This document shows positions 2,532-54,591 of a stretch of 64,000 nucleotides of DNA, piece by piece (position 1 is the first letter of the stretch; every line of letters begins with the position of its first letter). The translations under genes were made by a program, and so were the position numbers. The notes below the pieces were generated by a model that saw only the letters and a program-made list of their open reading frames with translations, had not been told where the DNA came from and searched no databases. The stretch is from Symbiodinium sp. CCMP2592 (taxonomy: Eukaryota; Sar; Dinophyceae; Suessiales; Symbiodiniaceae). Location: NCBI GenBank assembly GCA_905221615.1, contig CAJNDT010001225.1, positions 1 through 64,000 on the forward strand. Direction: 5' to 3'.

Positions 2532-2973
2532 TGCAGATTCTGCACATTCTTCAGCCGCTCCTGGACGGCATTACTGTCGCCACCGAGGTCGGGACTGCCC
2601 CAGGTGACCACGGATCCATCACCGAGGATTGCAGCAAATGCAGCACATGAAGATTGGATCTGCTGCACATCTCGCAGCTGTACCGGACTGCTGAAACCAT
2701 AGGGCAAACCCCAAGTGACCACAGATCCATCACGCAGGATTGCAGCAAATACCCCAGCAGAAGCTTGGATCTTCTGCACGCCTCGCAGCTGATCCTGCAC
2801 CGCACTGCTGTCTCCACCATGGTGGACATCACCCCAGGTGACCACAGATCCATCGCCCAGGATTGCGACAAATGCCCGACTAGAAGCCTGGATCTGCTTC
2901 ACATTCTTCAGCCGCTCCTGGACGAGCCTGCTGTCGCCACCGTCGTCGGCATGACCCCAGGTGACAACAGATC
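2532..2973 (-). pseudogene. RCC1-like repeat gene, middle segment
   Basis: Three RCC1-like repeats in a frame shifted relative to the upstream segment. The shift comes from one missing C in the otherwise invariant word AGATCCATCACCC (read on the plus strand) at about 2973. One repeat here is shortened in frame (WGLPYGFSSPVQLRDVQ). After about 2545 the frame is lost again. Either this is a decaying copy or the frame changes are sequencing errors; reads across 2973 would decide. Confidence 0.65.
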
Positions 2974-3918
2974 ATCACCCAAGAATACAGCAAATGCAAA
3001 GGCATTTGCCTGGATCTGTTGTACATTCTTCAGCTGCTTCTGTCCGGAATGGTTGCCACCGGTCCACGCACCCCAGGTGAAAACGGATCCATCACCGAGG
3101 ATGGCAGCAAATGCACCATAATGAGAAGCTTGAATCTGTTGCACATCTCTCAGCTGATCCCGTACCGCACTGCAGTCGCCACCACATTCGGCATCACCCC
3201 AGGTGACCACAGATCCATCACCCAGGATTGCAGCAAATGCGCGATCAGAAGCTCGGATCTGCTGCACATCTCGCAGCTGATCCTGCACCGCAGTGCTGTC
3301 GCCACCATAGCCGGCATCACCCCAGGTGACTACAGATCCATCCCCCAGGATTGAAGCAAAGGCTTTCTCCGAAGCTTGGATCTGGCGCACATTCCTGTGC
3401 TGCTCCTGGACGGCACTGCTGTCGCCACCATGGTCGGCCCTACCCCAGGAGACCACAGATCCATCACCCAGGAGCGCGGCAAACGCAGAGAAGATACCGT
3501 GCCTGCTGGCTGTAAGCTGGACTTGGTTTACATGCAGGGTGAGCACGTCTCCACTCTTCAACTTCGCTTCTGTGACAGTTTGCGCGTCGCCAAGCACCTC
3601 TCCAGAAGAATTCAGCAGCCTTCCTCTACCCGCGGCCAGGGCACTCTGGGCACATTGCTTCAATGACTCAATGGATGCATCCGCCTCCACTTCCAAAGAC
3701 ACACTCTTGCCGCTGAGCAGATGCACATCCACGAAAATCGACGCGTCGCTGTCAAAGGTTATTTCGAGACGGGCGTCTGTTCCAGTTTGGTTCACGATCA
3801 CAAAGTAATCTGAGCAATCGCGAGGTTGAGCAAGTTCGAGACCACGTTCATCCAAGAAGATGAAGTCCGCTGCAGATGGACACTGCGTCTGCTGGCTGCC
3901 CCGGACGACTTCGGCCAT
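2908..3918 (-). CDS. Ubiquitin-like domain plus RCC1-like repeats
   Basis: The open frame runs from 3999, but the first ATG is at 3918, which I take as the start unless an upstream exon exists. Numbering from 3999, residues 88-160 look like a ubiquitin-like fold (IFVDVHLLSGKSVSLEVEAD, then a helix and ...DVLTLHV). From residue 172 there are 41-residue repeats with the core AFAAILGDGSVVTWGDA, matching the 'dG.vvtWG' signature of RCC1 propeller blades. About ten repeats occur when the two downstream shifted segments are counted. Genes of this architecture are often annotated in dinoflagellates as HERC-like E3 ligases, but no HECT domain is visible here, so enzymatic function is not supported. 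A role in protein-protein binding is an inference. CCCTAAA-type repeats lie directly upstream (4040 onward). Confidence 0.75.
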   Translation of the reverse strand: MAEVVRGSQQTQCPSAADFIFLDERGLELAQPRDCSDYFVIVNQTGTDARLEITFDSDASIFVDVHLLSGKSVSLEVEADASIESLKQCAQSALAAGRGRLLNSSGEVLGDAQTVTEAKLKSGDVLTLHVNQVQLTASRHGIFSAFAALLGDGSVVSWGRADHGGDSSAVQEQHRNVRQIQASEKAFASILGDGSVVTWGDAGYGGDSTAVQDQLRDVQQIRASDRAFAAILGDGSVVTWGDAECGGDCSAVRDQLRDVQQIQASHYGAFAAILGDGSVFTWGAWTGGNHSGQKQLKNVQQIQANAFAFAVFLGDDLLSPGVMPTTVATAGSSRSG

Positions 3919-4045
3919 CACACACCGTGTTGAGAGCGAGCATGCATGCTGAAGTCGTGAGAAAGAACCACGAGTATCTTGCAATTGCACGATGGCCACT
4001 AGTTATTGTTGCTACAAGTGGGAAGTTGTTAAGCTGACGTCTCAT

Positions 4046-40854: not shown

Positions 40855-41275
40855 CTCTACACGGATCTCCCCTGCTTCCTCTGCAGGACTGGTTGGGGTA
40901 CCTACCTCCATAGGGAGGGTTGCCTGAGGCGCGGAGGTGGTAGCAGGCAGGGAAGTTGGCGCAGGAGGGCTGTGTGTCCCCAATGCCTCGGAGTGTGCTG
41001 CAGGAGGTGTGGAGACCACCACCTCAGCATCAGTTGTGCCCCCCAAGTTCTGGAGAGCCGTAGCTTCCAGGGTAGCCGTGGCAGAGGGCGACGAAGGTTC
41101 GGTTGCCGGGGCCACCGTGCAGCCTTGAAGCTGCTCTGCCAGGCCCTCATCCATCGCCTGCCCCGTGCCAGGGGGGGCTTCAGAAGCCTCCGTGATCGAA
41201 GACTGGGCAGGGGAGCGCTGGGCAGGCTGTTCGGCATCTTCACCTGGAGGGGTGCTAGCAGAGTTGGGGCTAGCT
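40855..41275 (-). CDS. Possible internal exon, Pro/Ala/Thr/Ser-rich protein
   Basis: Minus-strand open stretch of about 140 codons, GC-rich and free of telomere-like repeats, between two CCCTAAA arrays. Its 5' edge follows TTTATGGGTTTAG (AG acceptor) and its 3' edge is GTAGAG followed by GTAGGGG (plausible donor). The peptide is low-complexity (SPNSASTPPGEDAEQ, then alternating Pro, Ala, Thr, Glu) and would be disordered. No function can be named. If real, both adjacent introns consist largely of telomere-like repeat. Confidence 0.45.
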
Positions 41276-42668
41276 AAACCCATAAACTCCTAAACCCCCA
41301 GCACTTTAAACTAAAAGCCCTAGACCTCTGAACCCCAAACCCTAGACCCCTAAACCCATAAACTCCTAAACCCCCAGCACTTTAAACTAAAAGCCCTAGA
41401 CCTCTGAACCCCAAACCCTAGGCCCCTAAACCCATAAACTCCTAAACCCCCAGCACTTTAAACTAAAAGCCCTAGACCTCTGAACCCCAAACCCTAGGCC
41501 CCTAAACCCATAAACTCCTAAACCCCCAGCACTTTAAACTAAAAGCCCTAGACCTCTGAACCCCAAACCCTAAACCCCTAAACCCATAAACTCCTAAACC
41601 CCCAGCACTTTAAACTAAAAGCCCTAGACCTCTGAACCCCAAACCCTAGCCCCTAAACCCATAAACTCCTAAACCCCCAGCACTTTAAACTAAAACCCTA
41701 GACCTCTGAACCCCAAACCCACCCCTAAACCCATAAACTCCTAAACCCCCAGCACTTTAAACTAAAAGCCCTAGACCTCTGAACCCCAAACCCTAGACCC
41801 CTAAACCCATAAACTCCTAAACCCACAGCACTTTAAACTAAAAGCCCTAGACCTCTGAACCCCAAACCCTAGGCCCCTAAACCCATAAACTCCTAAACCC
41901 CCAGCACTTTAAACTAAAAGCCCTAGACCTCTGAACCCCAAACCCTAGACCCCTAAACCCATAAACTCCTAAACCCCCAGCACTTTAAACTAAAAGCCCT
42001 AGACCTCTGAACCCCAAACCCTAAACCCCTAAACCCATAAACTCCTAAACCCCCAGCACTTTAAACTAAAAGCCCTAGACCTCTGAACCCCAAACCCTAG
42101 ACCCCTAAACCCATAAACTCCTAAACCCCCAGCACTTTAAACTAAAAGCCCTAGACCTCTGAACCCCAAACCCTAGGCCCCTAAACCCATAAACTCCTAA
42201 ACCCCCAGCACTTTAAACTAAAAGCCCTAGACCTCTGAACCCCAAACCCTAAACCCCTAAACCCATAAACTCCTAAACCCCCAGCACTTTAAACTAAAAG
42301 CCCTAGACCTCTGAACCCCAAACCCTAAACCCCTAAACCCATAAACTCCTAAACCCCCAAACCTAAAAGCCCTAGCCACTAAAAGCCCTAGACCTCTGAA
42401 CCCCAAACCCTAACCCCTAAACCCATAAACTCCTAAACCCCCAGCACTTTAAACTAAAAGCCCTAGACCTCTGAACCCCAAACCCTAGACCCCTAAACCC
42501 ATAAACTCCTACCCCAAACCCTAAACCCCTAAACCCATAAACTCCTAAACCCCCAGCACTTTAAACTAAAAGCCCTAGACCTCTGAACCCCAAACCCTAA
42601 ACCCCTAAACCCATAAACTCCTAAACACCCAGCACTTTAAACTAAAAGCCCTAGACCTCTGAACCCCA
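41276..42668. repeat. 76-bp satellite, left array
   Basis: About 18 head-to-tail copies of a 76-bp unit (spacing measured 41281, 41357, 41433). It comprises CCCTAAACCCCTAAACCCAT, AAACTCCTAAACCCCCAGC, ACTTTAAACTAAAAGCCC and TAGACCTCTGAACCCCAAA. Half of each unit is telomere-like. One unit is scrambled near 42355-42385 and one is truncated at 42505-42511. Confidence 0.96.
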
Positions 42669-42790
42669 TGTGAACAGACATACCCCTCCGCTCATTCGCA
42701 CTATCCATTAACAGGTCGTGATCGGAAGGCCTTTTTTCGCTCGAGACAAAGAAGCAGGCGCAGATTGCATTAACCTTTTGTGGATTCGGA
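42669..42790 (+). repeat. 5' LTR
   Basis: 122 bp, starts TGTGAACAGACATACCCC and ends TTTTGTGGATTCGGA. It is very short for an LTR. It contains no obvious TATA box, in line with the general lack of TATA boxes in dinoflagellate promoters. The end is fixed by the match to the 3' LTR and by the adjoining primer-binding site. Confidence 0.95.
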
Positions 42791-42808
42791 GGTTATGAGC
42801 CCAAGTGG
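42791..42808 (+). promoter_or_regulatory. Primer-binding site, initiator tRNA-Met anticodon region
   Basis: GGTTATGAGCCCAAGTGG begins at the first base after the LTR. GGTTATGAGCCC is complementary to GGGCUCAUAACC, the anticodon stem-loop (CAU) of an initiator tRNA-Met. It is not complementary to a tRNA 3' end. Drosophila copia uses the same internal region (half-tRNA priming). Confidence 0.8.
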
Positions 42809-42832
42809 CCAATAACTTTCCACCACTGCGCC

Positions 42833-45800
42833 ATGGAAGATGTGAACATGCGGAGGAGGCTGGGCAAGAAGCCTAGTAATCCATCTGGAGCTGTGAGCAG
42901 CCAATCGGCAGATGATCCGTCGGAGCCCCGACCGAGAGTCCAGGATGATACTGCAGAGGAGACGACGATGCCTGATCAGCGAGGTGTTGCAAGAGGATCT
43001 GCGGAGAAAGTTTCTGGGAAAGGTCGGGGAGGGACGACGGCGTCTGTGGATGAAGGTGCGCCGACAGCTGCGGGAGCCGCGGTGAATCCTTTCTGGTCGG
43101 ATCGCGCTCGGGCAGAGGCTCAACTGATAGCAGCACGCCCAGATTTCCTGGGAGAGGTGACTGGGCAGAACTCTCGTGGCCCATCTTCTACATCTACGGA
43201 AATGAGGCCTTCGGAAGAGACATCGGTTGTGCCTAGCGGTGCGGTGGAAGAGAACCGGGTTGTGGCTGAACACCCTGTGGGAGAGCCGATTAGTTTTGGC
43301 CCGCCTGCTGCGGTGCACACCACTACTCGTGGACAAGCTGCTGCAACGGAAGCTCAGCCTGGAGAGCCGGGGTTGAGGCCCGGAGAGCGCCAGGTTCTGA
43401 CTGAGATGAAAGGTATCCTCGAGATGTTGGTGGCTCAAAACACTGAGCTGCGCGATCAGAATGAGAGTCTGCAATCTCGCCTGGAGAAGCTGGAGGAAGA
43501 TCGTTCTGCTGCATGGCGTTCGGTGGCCTCTGGGGGAGCTCAGGAAGGTGCAGACCAGACAGGTTCGGGGTTAGAGGGCATTGAGGGTCAGGGACTGAGT
43601 CAGTTGGGATACTTTGTTCCACCGGATAAGCTCTTTGAGAGCCCCAATCAGTTTGAGCACACTCAATCTCCTAGCCCTAAAGACCCTAAGGAAACGTGTG
43701 AGTATCAGCAAGGGTTTGAAGAAGGATACCTGGCAGCCCGAGAGGCTTGGAGTGCGGAGAGAGAGGACTTGAACATGTCGCCGCCCTCTGTACAAGATTG
43801 GAGGGTGCAATCAGAGGTTGGATTGAGGGATAGTCGTTTGCGCGAGCGAACTCCTGAACCATCCGTGAATCCCGAAGTTCGCGAGAGTAGGATCAATGTG
43901 ACCCCTAAGGGAACTCCTATTCCGCCCAGTCCTCCGCCGCCACCTCCTCCAGATGCGAATCGCTTTGAATCGTCATCGGAACGGCTGTCAGCTCCTAGTG
44001 TACATCGGGACAAGTCGGGAGGCTTCTTTGAGCGCGCTGCAGAGTTAGGTAGAAGGTCGGACTTGACAGGGATGTTTGAGGGCACACCGGTCGCACCTAG
44101 CATGATTCGGGCCAGTCATTTGGGAGTGGGTTTCAGCGGGATTACACCTGTGCAGGACACCGCCGTCCCGGGATGGGAGAGTGGGGTTCCGGGGAGTAGG
44201 TCTGATGCTCATGATGATCTCGTGGATCCGTGGCAAGGTCTTGACATTGCTAGTCTGGGAGTAGGTCCAGGTCGGGACCCATTCGTGCCAGGAGATCGGA
44301 CGTATTGGAATCTGCCCACTTTAGAGGATCCGTCACATCCGTCGCCTGCCACGCGGGCATCGGACTGGCTTGTCCAGATAAGGCCGATGCTGTATGATCT
44401 TTCAGACATGTCCCAATGCTGGTGGCAGAGAGTAGAGTACGAGAGCCAAGTGTGGTATCAACGGTGGTGCCGGGCGTCAGCTCTAGAGAGAGGGTTGATT
44501 GTGCCGAAGATGAGTTCCGAATTGAGTCACATGCGCTTTCGGAGGTTGGAGTCAAGAGCATACGGGATGCTTCAGACGGCAGTGCCGGCTATCATCAGGG
44601 ATGAGCTTCTGGCTTCGAGATCGCTGAATTGCATGAGTCTCCTTTTCCAGATCTTCAAGGTGTATGCTCCAGGGGGTCTGCAGGAGCGGACTCAAATCCT
44701 TGGTGACCTTACCAACTTAGGGGTGGCTCGCAGTGCATCGGAAGCGGTGCAATCGCTGAGGAGCTGGAGCAGGACTTATGCCAGAGCCCGTACCATGGGT
44801 GTGTCGGTTCCAGACCCTGCATTGGTTCTTCGTGGGTTGGACACACTTACGGAGGGATTGCTTCGGAAGGCGGTGCATTCCCAGGTATCCTTTCGAGTGT
44901 CCACGGCCAGGAACCATTTGCGACTGGACCATAATCCCACCATGGGAGCGGTTATGGAGTTCTTGAAGGTCCTTCAGAGTGAATGGGAACAGGTCTCGGT
45001 TTCTGGTCAGGATGAAGCCCCAAAGCCTCCAAAGGCTGCACGGATGGAAGCTGATCCAAAAGGGGATACGAAGGGAGATAAGGGCAACAATGACAAAGGC
45101 GGGAATCAGAAGGGGAAGGATCGGGAAGGAAAGGGGAACAGTGGGGGTGGGAAAACTCCAGACGCCCAGCCCAACGCAGGTGGTAAGGGTTGGAAGGGAC
45201 CTTGCTCGTTTTACATGACGTCACAGGGTTGTAGTAAGGGTCGGGATTGCTTGCATTACCACGATTTTTCCGCTGCCAAAGGACAGAGCCGATGCTACAA
45301 CTGTGGCTCAGATCAACATAGGCAACAAGACTGCTCAAGACCGAAAGGCAAGGGGAAAGGCAAGCCTTTGGGGGAGTCCCGAGGTAATTCGACGACGACT
45401 TCGATGACGACAGCTCGTGTCCCTAATAATTCCCCAGTCCCAAATCCTGCTGACTCACAGGAAACTCCCAAACCTTCTGAGTCCGCCGCTTCGGCCAGTG
45501 CCAACAAGGCGGGAAGTACATTGAATGCTGCCGGGACTCAGGGAGCTGCGGCCGGAGGACCGCCACGATCGTCCGCCAATCAGGTGTCGCAAACTCAAGT
45601 CCTGGAGGAAGCTCAGAAGTTGCTAAAGTCATTACGTATTGCCGCGCTGCGTGTGAATCCCGAAACTGGCGAATCTACTCATGAAGTGACTGATGCGGAT
45701 GCATCTGGCTTGCATGTTCATGAGAAAGAGAAAGCGTTTTGTGAGAGTGAGAGACAGAAGGGAGACACCGAAAGTTTGGTTCAAGGACACGACGTTTCCA

Positions 45801-48800
45801 AGGTGACGGTGAGAAAGATCAAGGGGCCTACGGGGCTCCTAGATGGGGGTGCTACGCATGCGCTCCGAAGCGCTGGTCCGGGGGAGTGGAGCGTTGCCAC
45901 TCCCACCAGGGTAGATCTTGCCGTAGGCTCGCAGGAATTGAGGATCTCATCGCTGGGAACTGTGCTGTCACAGAAGGCCATCTCTCCAATTTGCCCTCTC
46001 GGTGCCTTAGTCTCGGAGCTGGGGTGTAGGGTAAGATGGGATGCGGGTCAATGCATAATTCACCATCCTGTGCGAGGAGTACTTGACACGGAGCTGGTAA
46101 GTGGTTGTCCTACTGTCACCGAGTCGCTCTGCATTCAGCTTATTGGTGAACTGGAACAGTGTAGGGCTCAGAAGATTCAAAAGGCTCTGAACTTGAGGGC
46201 TTTGGCTCTGGGTAGTCCTTGCGAGGAGTCCGAACAGCCTTGTGCCTGGGGGTCTGAACTTGATGTTTTGAAGGTACTTCGGGAGATCTGTCCTGAGGAA
46301 TCTGAGGGAGTCCTAGCCAGGGCTGTGCCAATCCAGTGTGGGGACTATCCTGTAGGTGCTAGTGTTTTCCTGGGTCTTAATCGGAGGGCTCGGAAGGCAA
46401 TTCAACATGCCAAGCACGTGGTGCTGAACCTGTGTCCGGGCAAGCCCAAAGTATCTTGGCGAAATCTGTTTGGGGCGCAGACTGTGGTTCTCACTGTTGC
46501 TACGAGTCGCAATCCAGGTGTGTTCGACGAACGAACGTTCTCATGGCTGGCTACTCTGTGTGCGTCCGGGAAGGTTGCGGCAGTAGTAGGTAGCCAATCC
46601 AGGGTTGTGTCTAACTCCAGAGATGAGGGAGAAAGTCGAGAGGGAATTGAGATAGCGCATGAGAATCAGCTGATCCAGGTGCTGCGAACGTTGGTGTTAC
46701 ACAGGGTTGCTGAGCGCAACCGGGAAGGAGGGAGTGTGTTGGTGCTAGAGGGCTCTGATCGGGCTGGGTTCTGGAATAAGTTATCCTTGCCTGTGTGGAG
46801 CCGCAACGAGCTTTCAGTGCCGCTGGAGCCTCAGCACATTGGTGAGCTAAGGGGTAAGTGGTACCGTGCTGAGTTCGAGCAAGCTTTCTTCGGGGGTCTG
46901 GAGCCACGAAGGTCGATTATCCTCACCAATAGCTGGGATTTGTTTACACTCACTCATGCCCGTGGTGGCGAAGCGGGCTTCCGAGGGTTTCGACACCTCC
47001 GTGGCTGTCATCCATTCTGCGGATTGGGGGCTGTAGATGGGCGGACAGGTGGTGACTACGAAAACCAGCCCGCTGATTGGCCGGACGAGTTGGTGAGGGT
47101 AGTGACTCGATCACTTCAGCGATGGATCACAGAGAAAGAAGAGAAGAGAGAGGAGAGGCAGAAAGAAGAAAGAGTGACGCTGAATGCCTTAACCAAGGAA
47201 GAGGCAGAGTTCAAACGGCACTGCGAACAAGACCACGTCGTCTTCCGTAGAGACTGTAAGGTATGCCTTCAAGCCGCCATGCGTGGACCGAGACACTTTA
47301 GGCAACGACATCGGCACACCAACGCGCTGACGCTCAATCTCGACTTGATCGGACCGTGGACGGCTGGAGAAGACCATGCCTTAGCAGGGCCCGTGCGTCA
47401 CATCCTGGTGGCGACTCTTGGAGTCCCCATCCTCAGGGATGGAAAGCCACTTCCTCTTGAAAAGGAGAAAGAAAGAGAAGAGGGAGAGAAAGTCGATTCT
47501 GTTGAAGATGACGGTAGAGGGGTAGGACACGTTGATGCGGGAGAAGAAGAACCGAGGCTTGTGCTTGAAGATCCGGAGAGCAGGGGAGAGAGTGAAGAGC
47601 CAGAGTTATCACCAGAGGAATACAAGGCACTCTACGAAAAGCAAGAAGCCAAGTGGCGAGAGATCGCCAAAGATCTTCAAGAGCCGGTTCAGGTTCACGA
47701 AGTGCTGTTTGCTGAGCCTCTGAGGTCCAAACGGTCCGAGGAAGTGCTGCGAGGAATCCAGCGCATCTACTCAAAAATCACTGTGATGAACCTTTCCGTA
47801 CGTAGGACCCATAGCGATGGAGGTAGGGAGTTCACCAATCGGAGTTTCAAAACCTGGTGTGCGGCCCGTGACATTCATCCTACGTATTCCCCTCCTGGAG
47901 ACCCCAAGGCCAACGGTAGGATCGAGAATGCAGTCGGACGTGTGAAAGCAGGAATTCGCTCGTTGCTGCTCTCTGCCCCTGACCTTAAGAAAAGTTCCTG
48001 GCCGTCGGCGCTTCGTCAATTCGTAGAACAGAAGTTTCGGGCAAGCCTGGAGGTGTTGGGGGGTGAAAGGCCCAAGCGGGCTCTGCCACCTTTCGGGGCT
48101 AGGGTTATGGTTCAAAGTAGGTCATGGAGTAAGAAAACACCATATGCTCCGCGGGCAATAGAAGGCACTGCTCTGTGCCCTGCTTCCAACATTAGTGGCT
48201 GCACGGTTGTTCTGCTGCCTGAGCAAGAAGGAGACAAGCAACCAAGATTTCATGTTGCGCCAGTGGCTTACACGGGGGTGAAGGATTCGATCAAGTTTGA
48301 TGCTGAGACTGAGGGTGATGATCCTCCTTTGCCTCCGCCAAGTGATCCACCTGTTGTCAGAAAGCGAGTTTCCTCAAAAAGACCTGTTGTTGCCCACGCT
48401 TGCGTGGGGGGGGAGTATGGGTCAGAAAGCGGTTTTGAGTGCACGGTGCATCAAATGCCTCGTGAGAAAGAAGAGGAGAGCCGAGAGGAGCGCATGACAT
48501 GCCGTGTGTGTGAGGAACCCGTCAGTGAGCATGAGTCCATGAAGTGTAGTCTTTGTGGCTTGCGTGCTTCGGATAAGCTGTCGGTTGTAGAAAGTGAAGC
48601 TCGAGCTGAGCAACTTCTGACTGCTGCTCCTGTGCTCCGGAGAGAAGATGTGGACCAGTTGATCGCCGATTCTTTGTGGAGCTGGACTCCCAAAACTCGG
48701 AAGGTTGATCAGGGTTGTCAGGGATCAGGCGCACTGGGTTTTACTCTAGGTTTCTATCGTTACGGGCCTAAGATTGGGGTCACCAAGGAAACCCACCGCA

Positions 48801-51800
48801 GACCTTGCCTGACACAAGTTGTCAATCGCTACATGAAACAAGAAGGGGATCGCATCGGAAAGCCTGGGCACTGGTGCTCGGTTCGCGTGACTAGCAACTT
48901 CACTTCGGAGATACATCAAGATCGGAATGAGCCGGGTTCATTGAACTTTGTGGTTCCTGTTAGTACATTCGGGGGAGGGCGAATTTGGATTGAGGAAGGG
49001 TCTAGCCATTCTGCTGAACCCTCGGGTGCTACTGTCTGTGGGGCACGGGAAGAGGCGATAGGCAAAGGTGTTGGAAAGTATGTAGGCGGCGAGTTGCAGC
49101 CGATCTGGTTTGATGCTTCCCGCAAACATGCTGTTGAGGCCTCACAGGGAACCCGTAGAGTTCTGGTAGGATACACCCCAAAGGAATTTGGTAGGCTGCC
49201 TATCGATCTTAAAGATTTCCTTGTGGGACTGTCCTTTCCGTTGCCCTCGCCTGAGTCCCAAAGGCCCGTAGGAGAACATACGTCCGGAACCGCTGAGCAT
49301 GAAAGCCCAGAACTGCAGGAAGATGTGCTGTCTGAGTCGGAAGTCCACCAATTGCGTTGCGAACATACCATGCTTAGGCACCTCTTGATAGAGCAGCACA
49401 AGTGCTATGATGAAGAAGTTGCAACTGCCGCCATCGAGGGTTGGGTTGCTCCTAACCTTCATCTGCATGATCTGTGCACATGGATTGAGGAGTGTGAGCA
49501 GGGTTTGGTGTGGCAGGACTCCTGTGATCTTCTGAAGAGCGGTGCAGTAGGAGAAGCTGAGGCTGCTGTCCTAGGTGCTAGGTTGGCGCGCTTGGGGGTT
49601 TCTTACGATCCAGGTGAGGGTGAGGAAGTTCCATTGTACAACGACGAAACTCCCGGCGACATGAAGGATAGTGGGATAGTTGTACCCGGGGCTTGGGATG
49701 CCGAACCAGTTCAGCCTTTGCAGACTGTAACTGTATCGCATCAGGAAGTTCTGAAGAAGATTGAGGATTGGAAGGGTTCGATAGTTGATGAGTTGTCGAA
49801 TGTTTTCGATATACATGAGGCCATGCGTAGGCGAGGTGAGGCTGACCTTCAGGCTTGGAAGGATGCTGGAGAGCAGGTTGAAATCCTGCCTGCCAAGGCG
49901 ATCTTTCAAAAGAAGGGCGGCTCAGGGCGGCATAAATGCCGCGTTGTCGCATGCGGAAACTTTTCGGAGGGCGCTAAGAATAAGAGCCGTGACCAGAAAC
50001 TTCAGTGTTACGCTGGTGGTGCTGACTCGCTGAGCCTTCGCTGTCACCTTCGAGCTGCAGGTCATCGTGCGTGTAGCCAGGGATGGCGCACATCGGGGGC
50101 AGACATCCGCACAGCCTTCCTTCTGGCCCCGCTCCGAAAGCAGAGCAAGCGCATTGTCATGCGCCCACCATCTGTACTTGTGCAGGCGGGCTTCGCCGCC
50201 CCGAACGAGTACTGGGAGGTCACTGGTGCCTTGTACGGCTTGCAGGAGAGCCCTGCAGACTGGGCGGCGTACAGGGACGAGACGCTGCCTACCATTGATA
50301 TCTGCTACATGGATCAGAAGGTCAACTTGCAGAGATCTAAGAATGATCAGAATCTATGGCTTCTTTACTGTCCCACCACTGCAAAGCTGATCGCTGCTTT
50401 GACGATTTATGTTGATGATTTGTTGCTGTCAGGAACCCCGGAGGCTTCTGAGGCAGTGTGGGCAGCCATCAAGGCGAAGTGGAGGATCAGCGAGCCGGAG
50501 TATGCGGATCAGGGCAAAGTACTCACTTTTTGTGGGTTTGAGATCCGGCAGGAGCGCGACGGAATCCATGTTGGGCAGGCCAAGTATGTTCAGTCGTTGT
50601 TGGACAAGTACCCCGAGGTTCAAGGAACTGCGAGTTGCCCATATGCACGCGAGAGCGAGGTAATCGAATCGAAGCCTCAGGACTCGATCGAGAAACTTCG
50701 ACGAGCACAGGCGCTGGTGGGAGAGATGCTGTGGTTGGCGACGCGCACAAGGGCAGACCTTGCTTTTGGCGTGAGTCGTATCGGCCAGCTCATCACGCGA
50801 GACGTTGATCAGGCTCTGCGCCGAGGGGAGGAAATGCTCAAGTACCTGCGGGCTACCAAGGGCCAGGAGTTGATCTACGGAGACCCTGGCAAGGGACATG
50901 GTACAGCTAATCAGCTTCCCATCGAGAGAGACTTCAACCTCATCGAAGTGTTCGCTGATGCTAGTTTTTGTCCGGGCAGTGATCGAAGCCAGAGTGGAAT
51001 TATCCTCATGTGGGGAAATGCTCCCATTGGCTGGATGTCTATGCGCCAACCTTGTGCTAGTCTCAGCACGGCGGAAGCGGAACTGCAATCGTCATTGGAT
51101 GGGATGACTCTTGCGGAAGGACTACATGGACTGCTTGCAGAACTGGCAGAGGCCCCTCAGCAAACTTTCTTGTATAATGATAATGTTGGCGCATGTACGG
51201 TATTGACTTTACCGCAGGGGGCATGGAGGACCAGACATTTACGGTTGAAGGCGGCATGGTTTCTGGAACAATTGGAATACTCAAGATTCCGCGTATACCA
51301 TGTGCCGGGCCAATTCATGTTGGGTGACCTCTGTACGAAGTCTCTTGTGGGGGCACGCGTCAAGGAACTCCTCAAGATGATGAACGTGCGTGTCGGGCCA
51401 TCAAACGTTGATGGGGGGGAGTCGTCTTCGTCTTCATCACCTTCGGTGTCTTCGGTGAAGCTTGTGGCGCAAAAGGTTGTTGCAGGGTGTGCTGGGTCCG
51501 GGGGAGAACTTCAAAGTACACCTGCTTGGTCCTCGGGGACCGGGGGAGCACCTGATGCAGCGAGAGCCTTGCGTGTGTTGGCTGTTGCTTCGGCATTGCA
51601 GACAGTGACTGCGAAGTTGGTGCATGTGTCGGTTGATGTTGAAGATCGTCAATCCCAGGAGCTTGCCGAGTTGAAGACCGTCCTACAGCTTGTATGTTGC
51701 GTGTTGACCATTGTCGGCGTGCTTGCACTTGCCTGTTGGTGTCGTGGACAGTCTGAGGAAGTCCCGAGGATCCAAGCGTTGAGCTCAAGGGTGAGGGACG

Positions 51801-52894
51801 ATGAGAATTCTGAGATCACTGATGAAGGCGAGTGGTCGATGATTGAAGAGTCGAGAAGCGACGATGTGACTTCGAGCCTAGAGCTTGAAGGGGTGACGAC
51901 TGGACCGACGACCGGGGTAGGGTTGCGTAGGCGGTTGGGTTCCAGGTCCTTGGCCGTCCCGGCCTCCGATGACCCTAGAGGTTCCCTAACCCGACGAGAC
52001 CACAGTTGTGACGACGAGGGTTCCGCAGGAGCTACTCGGGTGTATGGTTCCAGGTCTTTGGCCGTCCCGGCCCTTGATGACCCTAAGGGTTCCTTATCCC
52101 GACGCGACGACTGGGTTGAAGGTGTAAGTGGGTCTAGCGGTTCTACGGTCTTTGCCAGCCTAGCCCCTGAGCTTGTGAGCGGTTCCTCTACCCTAAACCC
52201 TTGTGAAGGGAGGAGGTCGGAAGCTGGAGGTGGACTGCTGGGTCTGACTGGGAGAAGCTCCACTGAGAGCGGCGTGTTTGAAGTTCGCGGAGATGGACGA
52301 GTTCGAGGACTCCTCGCTGTACATGTTGATGATGCTGCTTATGTTGGCACCGCTGAAGGCGCGCCGGGTGTTGAACCTGCAAACGCAGAGAGTGCTTCTG
52401 CTTCTGGTGACTTTGACGGCGTTGCTGAAGACATTCCGGATGAGCATGACATTGCCGACGATTTGCAGGAGGACCAAAGGCGAGAGACTGAACGGGAACG
52501 CCTGGAAGTCTATCCAGGTTGGCCGCTTCGTGTACCTCCTCGCTTTGCTTGGGACCCGAAGCCTGAGTGGGGGTCTTGGGAGTCGCTGTTCTACCAGAAC
52601 ATCCCTACAACTGTCAGGCGAGATTTCTACTACCATGATCGCTTGAGAGGTGTGTTGGTGAGATTTCACGCCCTAGACAGGAAGCAGATGTTTGTGCCTT
52701 CGCCTGGAGGGTTACCCGAGTCCGTAAGCTGGGAAGCCTTGACTGGCCGCCGCAGAACTTTCCACCGAGGAGTGTCAACAAGCATGATTGGAGTCCTGGA
52801 AGACGTGTGGAATGTTCCACATCCGAAGCCTGCTAGACAAGTCTCGACAGAGAAGTGGGTCGGACGGACTGAGTTCGAGCTGCGCAGTCTGTGA
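42833..52894 (+). CDS. Copia-type Gag-Pol polyprotein with extra domains
   Basis: 3353 codons, starting at GCCATGG 42 bp after the LTR, ending TGA. Gag: coiled coil about 184-232, Pro run about 365, a Trp-rich capsid-like region 500-720, a Lys/Gly-rich stretch, CCCH finger C791/C800/C806/H810 and zinc knuckle C821/C824/H829/C834. Protease: LLDGGATHAL with D1004. About 1190-1380: degenerate cytosine-methyltransferase-like region. Integrase: H1463, H1468, C1475, C1478, then D1504, D1662 and E1698 (last pair D-x35-E), with a long acidic insert between the first two catalytic Asp. Zinc ribbon C1890/C1893/C1905/C1908. 2OG-Fe(II)-oxygenase-like region about 1920-2140 with H2028, D2030, H2099, R2108/R2109. 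Reverse transcriptase about 2345-2610 with YVDD at 2526-2529. RNase H with D2709, E2748/E2750, D2783. The last 500 or so residues are an extension with a membrane helix (about 2949-2972). No frameshift or stop is present, so it is probably functional. The methyltransferase and oxygenase calls are inferences from motif order. Confidence 0.95.
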   Translation: MEDVNMRRRLGKKPSNPSGAVSSQSADDPSEPRPRVQDDTAEETTMPDQRGVARGSAEKVSGKGRGGTTASVDEGAPTAAGAAVNPFWSDRARAEAQLIAARPDFLGEVTGQNSRGPSSTSTEMRPSEETSVVPSGAVEENRVVAEHPVGEPISFGPPAAVHTTTRGQAAATEAQPGEPGLRPGERQVLTEMKGILEMLVAQNTELRDQNESLQSRLEKLEEDRSAAWRSVASGGAQEGADQTGSGLEGIEGQGLSQLGYFVPPDKLFESPNQFEHTQSPSPKDPKETCEYQQGFEEGYLAAREAWSAEREDLNMSPPSVQDWRVQSEVGLRDSRLRERTPEPSVNPEVRESRINVTPKGTPIPPSPPPPPPPDANRFESSSERLSAPSVHRDKSGGFFERAAELGRRSDLTGMFEGTPVAPSMIRASHLGVGFSGITPVQDTAVPGWESGVPGSRSDAHDDLVDPWQGLDIASLGVGPGRDPFVPGDRTYWNLPTLEDPSHPSPATRASDWLVQIRPMLYDLSDMSQCWWQRVEYESQVWYQRWCRASALERGLIVPKMSSELSHMRFRRLESRAYGMLQTAVPAIIRDELLASRSLNCMSLLFQIFKVYAPGGLQERTQILGDLTNLGVARSASEAVQSLRSWSRTYARARTMGVSVPDPALVLRGLDTLTEGLLRKAVHSQVSFRVSTARNHLRLDHNPTMGAVMEFLKVLQSEWEQVSVSGQDEAPKPPKAARMEADPKGDTKGDKGNNDKGGNQKGKDREGKGNSGGGKTPDAQPNAGGKGWKGPCSFYMTSQGCSKGRDCLHYHDFSAAKGQSRCYNCGSDQHRQQDCSRPKGKGKGKPLGESRGNSTTTSMTTARVPNNSPVPNPADSQETPKPSESAASASANKAGSTLNAAGTQGAAAGGPPRSSANQVSQTQVLEEAQKLLKSLRIAALRVNPETGESTHEVTDADASGLHVHEKEKAFCESERQKGDTESLVQGHDVSKVTVRKIKGPTGLLDGGATHALRSAGPGEWSVATPTRVDLAVGSQELRISSLGTVLSQKAISPICPLGALVSELGCRVRWDAGQCIIHHPVRGVLDTELVSGCPTVTESLCIQLIGELEQCRAQKIQKALNLRALALGSPCEESEQPCAWGSELDVLKVLREICPEESEGVLARAVPIQCGDYPVGASVFLGLNRRARKAIQHAKHVVLNLCPGKPKVSWRNLFGAQTVVLTVATSRNPGVFDERTFSWLATLCASGKVAAVVGSQSRVVSNSRDEGESREGIEIAHENQLIQVLRTLVLHRVAERNREGGSVLVLEGSDRAGFWNKLSLPVWSRNELSVPLEPQHIGELRGKWYRAEFEQAFFGGLEPRRSIILTNSWDLFTLTHARGGEAGFRGFRHLRGCHPFCGLGAVDGRTGGDYENQPADWPDELVRVVTRSLQRWITEKEEKREERQKEERVTLNALTKEEAEFKRHCEQDHVVFRRDCKVCLQAAMRGPRHFRQRHRHTNALTLNLDLIGPWTAGEDHALAGPVRHILVATLGVPILRDGKPLPLEKEKEREEGEKVDSVEDDGRGVGHVDAGEEEPRLVLEDPESRGESEEPELSPEEYKALYEKQEAKWREIAKDLQEPVQVHEVLFAEPLRSKRSEEVLRGIQRIYSKITVMNLSVRRTHSDGGREFTNRSFKTWCAARDIHPTYSPPGDPKANGRIENAVGRVKAGIRSLLLSAPDLKKSSWPSALRQFVEQKFRASLEVLGGERPKRALPPFGARVMVQSRSWSKKTPYAPRAIEGTALCPASNISGCTVVLLPEQEGDKQPRFHVAPVAYTGVKDSIKFDAETEGDDPPLPPPSDPPVVRKRVSSKRPVVAHACVGGEYGSESGFECTVHQMPREKEEESREERMTCRVCEEPVSEHESMKCSLCGLRASDKLSVVESEARAEQLLTAAPVLRREDVDQLIADSLWSWTPKTRKVDQGCQGSGALGFTLGFYRYGPKIGVTKETHRRPCLTQVVNRYMKQEGDRIGKPGHWCSVRVTSNFTSEIHQDRNEPGSLNFVVPVSTFGGGRIWIEEGSSHSAEPSGATVCGAREEAIGKGVGKYVGGELQPIWFDASRKHAVEASQGTRRVLVGYTPKEFGRLPIDLKDFLVGLSFPLPSPESQRPVGEHTSGTAEHESPELQEDVLSESEVHQLRCEHTMLRHLLIEQHKCYDEEVATAAIEGWVAPNLHLHDLCTWIEECEQGLVWQDSCDLLKSGAVGEAEAAVLGARLARLGVSYDPGEGEEVPLYNDETPGDMKDSGIVVPGAWDAEPVQPLQTVTVSHQEVLKKIEDWKGSIVDELSNVFDIHEAMRRRGEADLQAWKDAGEQVEILPAKAIFQKKGGSGRHKCRVVACGNFSEGAKNKSRDQKLQCYAGGADSLSLRCHLRAAGHRACSQGWRTSGADIRTAFLLAPLRKQSKRIVMRPPSVLVQAGFAAPNEYWEVTGALYGLQESPADWAAYRDETLPTIDICYMDQKVNLQRSKNDQNLWLLYCPTTAKLIAALTIYVDDLLLSGTPEASEAVWAAIKAKWRISEPEYADQGKVLTFCGFEIRQERDGIHVGQAKYVQSLLDKYPEVQGTASCPYARESEVIESKPQDSIEKLRRAQALVGEMLWLATRTRADLAFGVSRIGQLITRDVDQALRRGEEMLKYLRATKGQELIYGDPGKGHGTANQLPIERDFNLIEVFADASFCPGSDRSQSGIILMWGNAPIGWMSMRQPCASLSTAEAELQSSLDGMTLAEGLHGLLAELAEAPQQTFLYNDNVGACTVLTLPQGAWRTRHLRLKAAWFLEQLEYSRFRVYHVPGQFMLGDLCTKSLVGARVKELLKMMNVRVGPSNVDGGESSSSSSPSVSSVKLVAQKVVAGCAGSGGELQSTPAWSSGTGGAPDAARALRVLAVASALQTVTAKLVHVSVDVEDRQSQELAELKTVLQLVCCVLTIVGVLALACWCRGQSEEVPRIQALSSRVRDDENSEITDEGEWSMIEESRSDDVTSSLELEGVTTGPTTGVGLRRRLGSRSLAVPASDDPRGSLTRRDHSCDDEGSAGATRVYGSRSLAVPALDDPKGSLSRRDDWVEGVSGSSGSTVFASLAPELVSGSSTLNPCEGRRSEAGGGLLGLTGRSSTESGVFEVRGDGRVRGLLAVHVDDAAYVGTAEGAPGVEPANAESASASGDFDGVAEDIPDEHDIADDLQEDQRRETERERLEVYPGWPLRVPPRFAWDPKPEWGSWESLFYQNIPTTVRRDFYYHDRLRGVLVRFHALDRKQMFVPSPGGLPESVSWEALTGRRRTFHRGVSTSMIGVLEDVWNVPHPKPARQVSTEKWVGRTEFELRSL

Positions 52895-53021
52895 AGAAGG
52901 ATCCGCCGGTGCTGAAGCCGGACAGCTTGATCCTAGTTTTGTTGACCGGTGACTTTTGAAAAGGCCTTGAGCTTACTCAATCAATTCTTTAACTGATCTT
53001 TTCCATCTGAGCTCTGTGAAG

Positions 53022-53045
53022 TGTGTACCATGGCGATGGTACACA
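53022..53045 (+). other. Perfect hairpin next to the polypurine tract
   Basis: TGTGTACCAT, loop GGCG, ATGGTACACA: a 10-bp perfect stem with a 4-nt loop. Its last base overlaps the start of the polypurine tract. Confidence 0.9.
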
Positions 53046-53052
53046 GGGGGAG
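53045..53052 (+). promoter_or_regulatory. Polypurine tract
   Basis: AGGGGGAG directly before the 3' LTR, the expected primer for plus-strand DNA synthesis. Confidence 0.9.
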
Positions 53053-53174
53053 TGTGAACAGACATACCCCTCCGCTCATTCGCACTATCCATTAACAGGT
53101 CGTGATCGGAAGGCCTTTTTTCGCTCGAGACAAAGAAGCAGGCGCAGATTGCATTAACCTTTTGTGGATTCGGA
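53053..53174 (+). repeat. 3' LTR
   Basis: 122 bp, identical by eye to the 5' LTR. Followed by the target repeat CCCCA. Confidence 0.95.
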
Positions 53175-53331
53175 CCCCAAACCCTAAACCCCTAAACCCA
53201 TAAACTCCTAAACCCCCAGCACTTTAAACTAAAAGCCCTAGACCTCTGAACCCCAAACCCTAAACCCCTAAACCCATAAACTCCTAAACACCCAGCACTT
53301 TAAACTAAAAGCCCTAGACCTCTGAACCCCA
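53175..53331. repeat. 157-bp satellite block duplicated from 5' flank
   Basis: Two 76-bp satellite units plus CCCCA. It reads identically to 42512-42668, including the rare variant CTAAACACCCAGC in place of CTAAACCCCCAGC. Confidence 0.93.
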
Positions 53332-53452
53332 TGTGAACAGACATACCCCCCGCTCATTCGCACTATCCATTAACAGGTCGTGATCGGAAGGCCTTTTTTC
53401 GCTCGAGACAAAGAAGCAGGCGCAGATTGCATTAACCTTTTGTGGATTCGGA
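53332..53452 (+). repeat. Solo LTR
   Basis: 121 bp, same as the other LTRs except for loss of one T (TACCCCCCGCTC versus TACCCCTCCGCTC). Flanked by CCCCA on both sides. Confidence 0.95.
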
Positions 53453-54495
53453 CCCCAAACCCTAAACCCCTAAACCCATAAACTCCTAAACCCCCAGCAC
53501 TTTAAACTAAAAGCCCTAGACCTCTGAACCCCAAACCCTAAACCCCTAAACCCATAAACTCCTAAACCCCCAGCACTTTAAACTAAAAGCCCTAGACCTC
53601 TGAACCCCAAACCCTAACCCCTAAACCCATAAACTCCTAAAAAGCACTTTAAACTAAAAGCCCTAGACCTCTGAACCCCAAACCCTAAACCCCTAAACCC
53701 ATAAACTCCTAAACCCCCAGCACTTTAAACTAAAAGCCCTAGACCCTAAACCCATAAACTCCTAAACCCCCAGCACTTTAAACTAAAAGCCTTTAAACTA
53801 AAAGCCCTAGACCTCTGAACCCCAAACCCTAGGCCCCTAAACCCATAAACTCCTAAACCCCCAGCACTTTAAACTAAAAGCCCTAGACCTCTGAACCCCA
53901 AACCCTAAACCCCTAAACCCATAAACTCCTAAACCCCCAGCACTTTAAACTAAAAGCCCTAGACCTCTGAACCCCAAACCCTAAACCCCCTAAACCCATA
54001 AACTCTTAAACCCCCAGCACTTTAAACTAAAAGCCCTAGACCTCTGAGACCCCTAAACCCATAAACTCTGACCCCTAAACCCATAAACTCTTAAACCCCC
54101 AGCACTTTAAACTAAAAGCCCTAGACCTCTGAACCCCAAACCCTAGACCCCTAAACCCATAAACTCTAAACCCCCAGCACTTTAAACTAAAAGCCCTAGA
54201 CCTCTGAACCCCAAACCCTAGACCCCTAAACCCATAAACTCTTAAACCCCCAGCACTTTAAACTAAAAGCCCTAGACCTCTGAACCCCAAACCCTAGACC
54301 CCTAAACCCATAAACTCTTAAACCCCCAGCACTTTAAACTAAAAGCCCTAGACCTCTGAACCCCAAACCCTAAACCCCTAAACCCATAAACTCCTAAACC
54401 CCCAGCACTTTAAACTAAAAGCCCTAGACCTCTGAACCCCAAACCCTAGACCCCTAAACCCATAAACTCCTAAACCCCCAGCACTTTAAACTGAA
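53453..54495. repeat. 76-bp satellite, right array
   Basis: About 14 copies of the same unit, with more rearrangement than the left array: a partial unit at 53635-53650, a duplicated TTTAAACTAAAAGCC near 53778-53800 and truncated units at 54040-54085. The variant AAACTCTTAAACCCCC is confined to this side. The array ends within a unit at GCACTTTAAACTGAAAGC. Confidence 0.95.
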
Positions 54496-54591
54496 AGCTT
54501 CGCACACCCAGGAGGGCTCCTCGGACCTTCGGCCGTTTAAAGCTGAGACCAGGGATGTCATTGAACTGATGACCTCGAATGGTTTAAGGGG

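Follow-up and report, generated by a model that had tools for sequence, protein, structure and literature searches.

Long terminal repeat (LTR) retrotransposons with a captured 2-oxoglutarate (2OG)- and Fe(II)-dependent oxygenase are known from the orchid Phalaenopsis, in which Ty3/Gypsy elements contain an AlkB (2-oxoglutarate-dependent dioxygenase, 2-ODD) open reading frame (ORF) with the HxD...H and Arg residues kept, and this AlkB demethylates N6-methyladenosine (m6A) in RNA in vitro (PMC9289625; this and the other studies are cited here from parts of their text). Those parts report no domain gain in plant Copia elements. Fungal mobile elements likewise carry 2OG-Fe(II) oxygenases, of the TET/JBP type and mostly with the HxD motif, and the cited parts of that survey report no retrotransposon with TET/JBP (PMC12730594). 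In Symbiodinium, long interspersed nuclear elements (LINE) and DIRS retrotransposons have captured a nucleic-acid-modifying enzyme, a DNA methyltransferase (DNMT), and the abundant Copia elements are described in the cited text as being without any DNMT domain (PMC5890265). Here we analyse 64,000 nucleotides of Symbiodinium sp. CCMP2592 (contig CAJNDT010001225.1, the whole stretch being referred to as the window), which contain a 10.5-kb Copia element (42669-53174) with a single open polyprotein ORF that encodes a candidate 2OG-Fe(II) oxygenase between integrase and reverse transcriptase. On balance we favour the view that an old Copia lineage captured a 2OG-Fe(II) oxygenase and keeps it in Pol as a predicted active domain, probably acting on nucleic acid.

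The orchid elements differ from this one in being Gypsy and not Copia, in expressing their ORF2 apart from Gag-Pol, in bearing a recognisable AlkB and in having acquired it recently (PMC9289625). The fungal carriers are DNA transposons and Helitrons (PMC12730594), and the Symbiodinium LINE and DIRS elements carry a methyltransferase rather than an oxygenase (PMC5890265). That LTR retrotransposons can capture a 2OG oxygenase is thus known; the present case differs in the Copia context, the location within Gag-Pol and a lineage diverged to about 43% identity. Among the open-access papers listed by literature searches, none was recognisable from its title or the beginning of its abstract as describing a Copia element whose Pol includes a 2OG oxygenase.

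The integrase and reverse transcriptase matches in the polyprotein are separated by a gap of 659 residues, within which the features central to our reading are located as follows.

42833..52894, + strand: Gag-Pol ORF of 3353 amino acids, stop-free in the ORF translation, with Pfam matches to RVT_2 and rve
48500..48556, + strand: zinc ribbon C1890-x2-C1893-x11-C1905-x2-C1908, all four Cys kept in 7 of the 7 rows reaching the site, the two pairs being spaced by 10 or 11 residues
48578..49258, + strand: 2OG-Fe(II) oxygenase-like domain, residues 1916-2142, with N-terminal helices and a predicted double-stranded beta-helix, assigned from the fold predicted on the relative P0003, the fold matches and the match of the relative P0002 to PHROG 274
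48914..48922, + strand: H2028-Q-D2030, proposed iron ligands, H and D kept in 8 of the 8 rows reaching the site
49127..49129, + strand: H2099, proposed distal iron ligand, kept in 8/8 rows reaching it, its equivalent beginning a predicted strand
49154..49159, + strand: R2108-R2109, proposed 2OG anchor, kept in 8/8 rows reaching them, with equivalents where the last predicted strand begins

The rows are ten in number and comprise the window and nine relatives from three protein searches (P0001-P0009). Three of these relatives, P0001, P0002 and P0003, are polyproteins with 73, 43 and 43% identity to the query over the aligned part (100, 100 and 89% of the query, respectively), and P0004-P0009 are shorter unnamed ORFs of 134-436 residues. 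By our reading the ten rows form about four groups, so that eight rows keeping a residue do not amount to eight independent cases. A preliminary description of this locus, made from the sequence alone, had named the zinc ribbon and all five proposed iron and 2OG residues. Its numbering proved exact (48494 corresponds to residue 1888, and HQDRN, RKHAVEAS and GTRRVLVGYT begin at 2028, 2097 and 2106), and the ribbon and residues are retained in the rows reaching them, the residues at identities as low as about 40%. N2032 is likewise kept in the eight rows reaching it. Comparison of the four full-length polyproteins, in which 79 of 255 domain positions are invariant, sharpens this picture: only two of six His (2028 and 2099) and two of ten Asp (1959 and 2030) are invariant, as are seven of 19 Arg, including R2108 and R2109, which makes the arginines less telling. 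It is this conservation across relatives that lifts the specific His and Asp residues above chance.

AlphaFold predicted a double-stranded beta-helix for the domain of P0003 with a predicted local distance difference test score (pLDDT) of 70.2; on the window sequence with four rows the pLDDT was 50, and that model was left out of the fold search. When the P0003 model was submitted to Foldseek, 48 of the 50 matches listed were 2OG oxygenases. The double-stranded beta-helix proposed in the preliminary description is supported as a prediction on a relative and by its fold matches, whereas the bare motif layout on which it had been based turned out to be chance-like (see below). In a fold comparison ranked by Z score, Naegleria NgTET1 (5cg9, 4lt5, 5cg8; 11% identity) came first, with SnoN, PiuC, the prolyl hydroxylase PHD2, LH3 and FTO at most 1 Z unit behind. 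These tied folds do not show the TET/JBP membership that had been envisaged. Pfam listed no match to Tet_JBP or to any 2OG family, in a search in which the HMMER filters drop most matches above E 0.1. That the domain is a true TET/JBP enzyme oxidising 5-methylcytosine or thymine in DNA is, in our judgement, unlikely.

The sole family-level sequence match to a relative was obtained between the P0002 domain (residues 59-216) and PHROG 274, at E 5.4e-4; the window domain matched the same family weakly (E 0.32), and PHROG 274 was matched by two of eight members in one search and two of ten in another (best E 3.8e-4). PHROG 274 is named 'DNA endonuclease V' and occurs at cyanophage loci (L010 and L013-L022), and this or the denV annotation recurs across further cyanophage listings. 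Two P-HM1 proteins with this annotation match PHROG 274 with E-values of 3e-30 and 2e-40. Both are matched by Pfam 2OG-FeII_Oxy_3 as well, in one case above the cutoff and in the other slightly below it. An H-x-D followed by F-x-G/A...H...R is found in all 12 aligned phage members, with the H-x-D columns of three shifted by MAFFT. Since the two tested proteins match 2OG-FeII_Oxy_3 and all 12 members carry H-x-D...H...R, the name 'DNA endonuclease V' is probably wrong and the cyanophage proteins look like 2OG-Fe(II) oxygenases. They share the H-x-D and later H...R with the Copia domain but are stand-alone phage proteins.

The 2OG-FeII_Oxy_3 family includes prolyl hydroxylases, and the fold matches include PHD2, P4H, LH3 and AspH, so a protein hydroxylase of the prolyl or aspartyl/asparaginyl type, modifying Gag, Pol or a host chromatin protein, has to be considered. 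The match to PHROG 274, whose tested members fall to 2OG-FeII_Oxy_3, speaks for such an enzyme. However, no protein substrate is apparent, and both the adjacent zinc ribbon and the location flanked by integrase and reverse transcriptase would suit nucleic acid better, which makes a hydroxylase rather unlikely. The fold evidence, like the data as a whole, does not choose among RNA, DNA and protein as the substrate. Retention of a beta-helix fold without its chemistry, the domain serving as a scaffold or an RNA- or DNA-binding module, appears improbable: accessory domains in elements can serve as binding modules, but here no row has lost any of the five iron and 2OG residues that it reaches, while the other His vary among the four full-length proteins.

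Several results weigh against a captured oxygenase. Neither Pfam (8 members) nor NCBIfam (10 members) returned a significant 2OG family for the domain, and a PDB sequence search with the domain gave no significant oxygenase match. Matches to DUF746 (two of eight members, Pfam) and YqbG (one of ten, NCBIfam), with E down to 0.005, concern unrelated families and were taken as noise. With a home-made hidden Markov model (HMM) of the 12 phage PHROG 274 proteins, six Copia domains scored -1.5 to 0.9 bits, and a score as high or higher was reached by 7, 5, 4, 6, 1 and 13 of 201 controls for the respective domains (71 to 125 of the 201 received any score), a result that speaks against giving the PHROG 274 match much weight. 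Profile-profile comparison of the domain with phage 2OG oxygenases was insignificant; of the three alignments, two were located at the distal His/Arg strand, but both were built from phage sets that overlap. The H-x-D...H...R layout appeared in 914 of 5000 shuffles of the domain, and the polyprotein has it six times, compared with a mean of 4.4 after shuffling; being at chance level, the bare layout was dropped as evidence. Finally, invariance per 100-residue block is 26-32% at 1901-2200 versus 24% in the adjoining blocks (31-60% across 2301-2900 and 7-13% from 2901 on), so that the block average does not separate the domain from linkers, whereas the residue pattern does. A motif arising by coincidence within a lineage-specific linker, with no beta-helix oxygenase at all, would fit the commonness of the layout, the silence of the curated profile libraries and the linker-like block conservation, but is very improbable in view of the conservation of single residues, the fold prediction and the fact that the fold matches consistently point to one superfamily.

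Searches for relatives elsewhere were also made. A tblastn search of phages with P0007 and a piece of P0002 as queries gave chance matches only (best E 3 and 0.8), and contigs of IMG/VR and GTDB genomes, a set that possibly does not include the window's own genome, yielded no relatives with the domain or the reverse transcriptase as query.

The captured oxygenase can be rationalised in the following way. The conserved residues and the intact element are observed and the fold is predicted on a relative; we infer activity, release by the protease, packaging and substrate. A 2OG-Fe(II) oxygenase would have been captured by an old Copia lineage and kept between integrase and reverse transcriptase beside the zinc ribbon, where it would bind Fe(II) and 2OG and be active. 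The element's protease might cut the domain out, or it might stay joined to integrase or reverse transcriptase, and in either form it could be carried in the particle alongside genomic RNA and cDNA. In that setting it would remove or alter a mark borne by the RNA of the element, by the cDNA or by the DNA of the integration site, and this change might allow the element to escape host control. Since distant relatives have kept the domain, it may help the element to spread. The broad class of such oxygenases includes erasers of chemical marks on DNA and RNA, and we consider demethylation of RNA or DNA the most likely reaction; the closest published parallel, the orchid Gypsy AlkB, is one for RNA demethylation, and the fungal DNA transposons offer a parallel for DNA base oxidation. 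More tentatively, we hypothesise that the Copia lineage carries in Gag-Pol its own eraser of a nucleic-acid mark, an oxygenase of TET- or AlkB-like type that would be packaged along with the genome and would strip or rewrite host marks on RNA, cDNA or the landing site; we put this possibility at somewhat less than even chances.

If true, packaging of a mark-changing oxygenase would give a retrotransposon a direct means of countering epigenetic or epitranscriptomic silencing. ONSEN, a Copia element, provides a point of reference. According to a preprint cited in PMC9289625, m6A restrains the RNA of heat-activated ONSEN and the host demethylase ALKBH9B lifts this restraint; an element with an ALKBH9B-type enzyme of its own in Pol would be a logical further development. 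In a dinoflagellate host, such an element would also bear on which enzymes shape 5-hydroxymethyluracil, a base reported in the cited part of Marinov et al. to be enriched on most repeat classes of Breviolum (PMC11071213).

The remaining features of the element are listed below.

42669..42790, + strand: 5' LTR, 122 bp, with 0 mismatches to the 3' LTR and CCCCA just upstream at 42664-42668
42791..42808, + strand: primer-binding-site-like sequence GGTTATGAGCCCAAGTGG, immediately 3' of the 5' LTR, read from the sequence
45293..45334, + strand: Gag zinc-knuckle-like C821-x2-C824-x4-H829-x4-C834, four residues invariant in 4/4 polyproteins
45839..45859, + strand: protease-like LDGGATH, residues 1003-1009, invariant in 4/4 polyproteins
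46379..46852, + strand: degenerate methyltransferase-like stretch, residues ~1183-1340, from the alignment, by motif resemblance only
47711..47905, + strand: integrase core rve, residues 1627-1691, Pfam E 3.1e-5, below cutoff
49883..50611, + strand: reverse transcriptase of the Copia type (RVT_2), residues 2351-2593, above the Pfam cutoff at E 5.7e-13
53044..53052, + strand: polypurine-tract-like CAGGGGGAG, immediately 5' of the 3' LTR
53053..53174, + strand: 3' LTR, 122 bp, with CCCCA just downstream at 53175-53179

With regard to Ty1/Copia membership, rve and then RVT_2 are both present in one polyprotein (Pfam; rve below cutoff), and two LTRs and a CCCCA target-site duplication were found, the flanking satellite itself containing CCCCA. 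The identical LTRs and the open ORF suggest a recent insertion by a working element. The sequence GGTTATGAGCCCAAGTGG presumably resembles the anticodon arm of tRNA-Met, and by their motifs we take C821-C834 to be a putative Gag zinc knuckle and LDGGATH to be a putative protease motif. A solo LTR of the same family (53332-53452), which at 121 bp is one base short of the element's LTRs and is likewise flanked by CCCCA, belongs to a 278-bp tandem duplication adjoining the element.

In the methyltransferase-like stretch, which lies between protease and integrase, P0002 has IGGPPC and ENP and P0003 has ACPPC, motifs that we presume to be reminiscent of cytosine methyltransferases; the window and P0001 are gapped there. 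The stretch found no Pfam match in P0001-P0003, and the P0002 piece no PDB match, so we treat it as a motif resemblance. Given this decayed stretch in the polyprotein, the lineage may once have carried both writer and eraser. In P0003, the linker between the oxygenase domain and the reverse transcriptase holds a short tandem unit (VTAEIPVTSESSH), and other short repeats occupy the same linker position in P0005, P0007 and P0009.

The element is embedded on both sides (41274-42668 and 53174-54498) in a telomere-like satellite of 76-nucleotide units of the CCCTAAAC type, and further CCCTAAA/TTTAGGG-type arrays are spread across the window. Many algae and plants have telomere-like repeats of this type. 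No match to the dinoflagellate spliced-leader relic was found in the window with up to three mismatches allowed. An ORF of 363 amino acids on the minus strand (2908-3999) overlaps a 123-bp tandem repeat array and encodes repeats of the form VVTWGDA..GGDS.AV, which we take to be RCC1-like.

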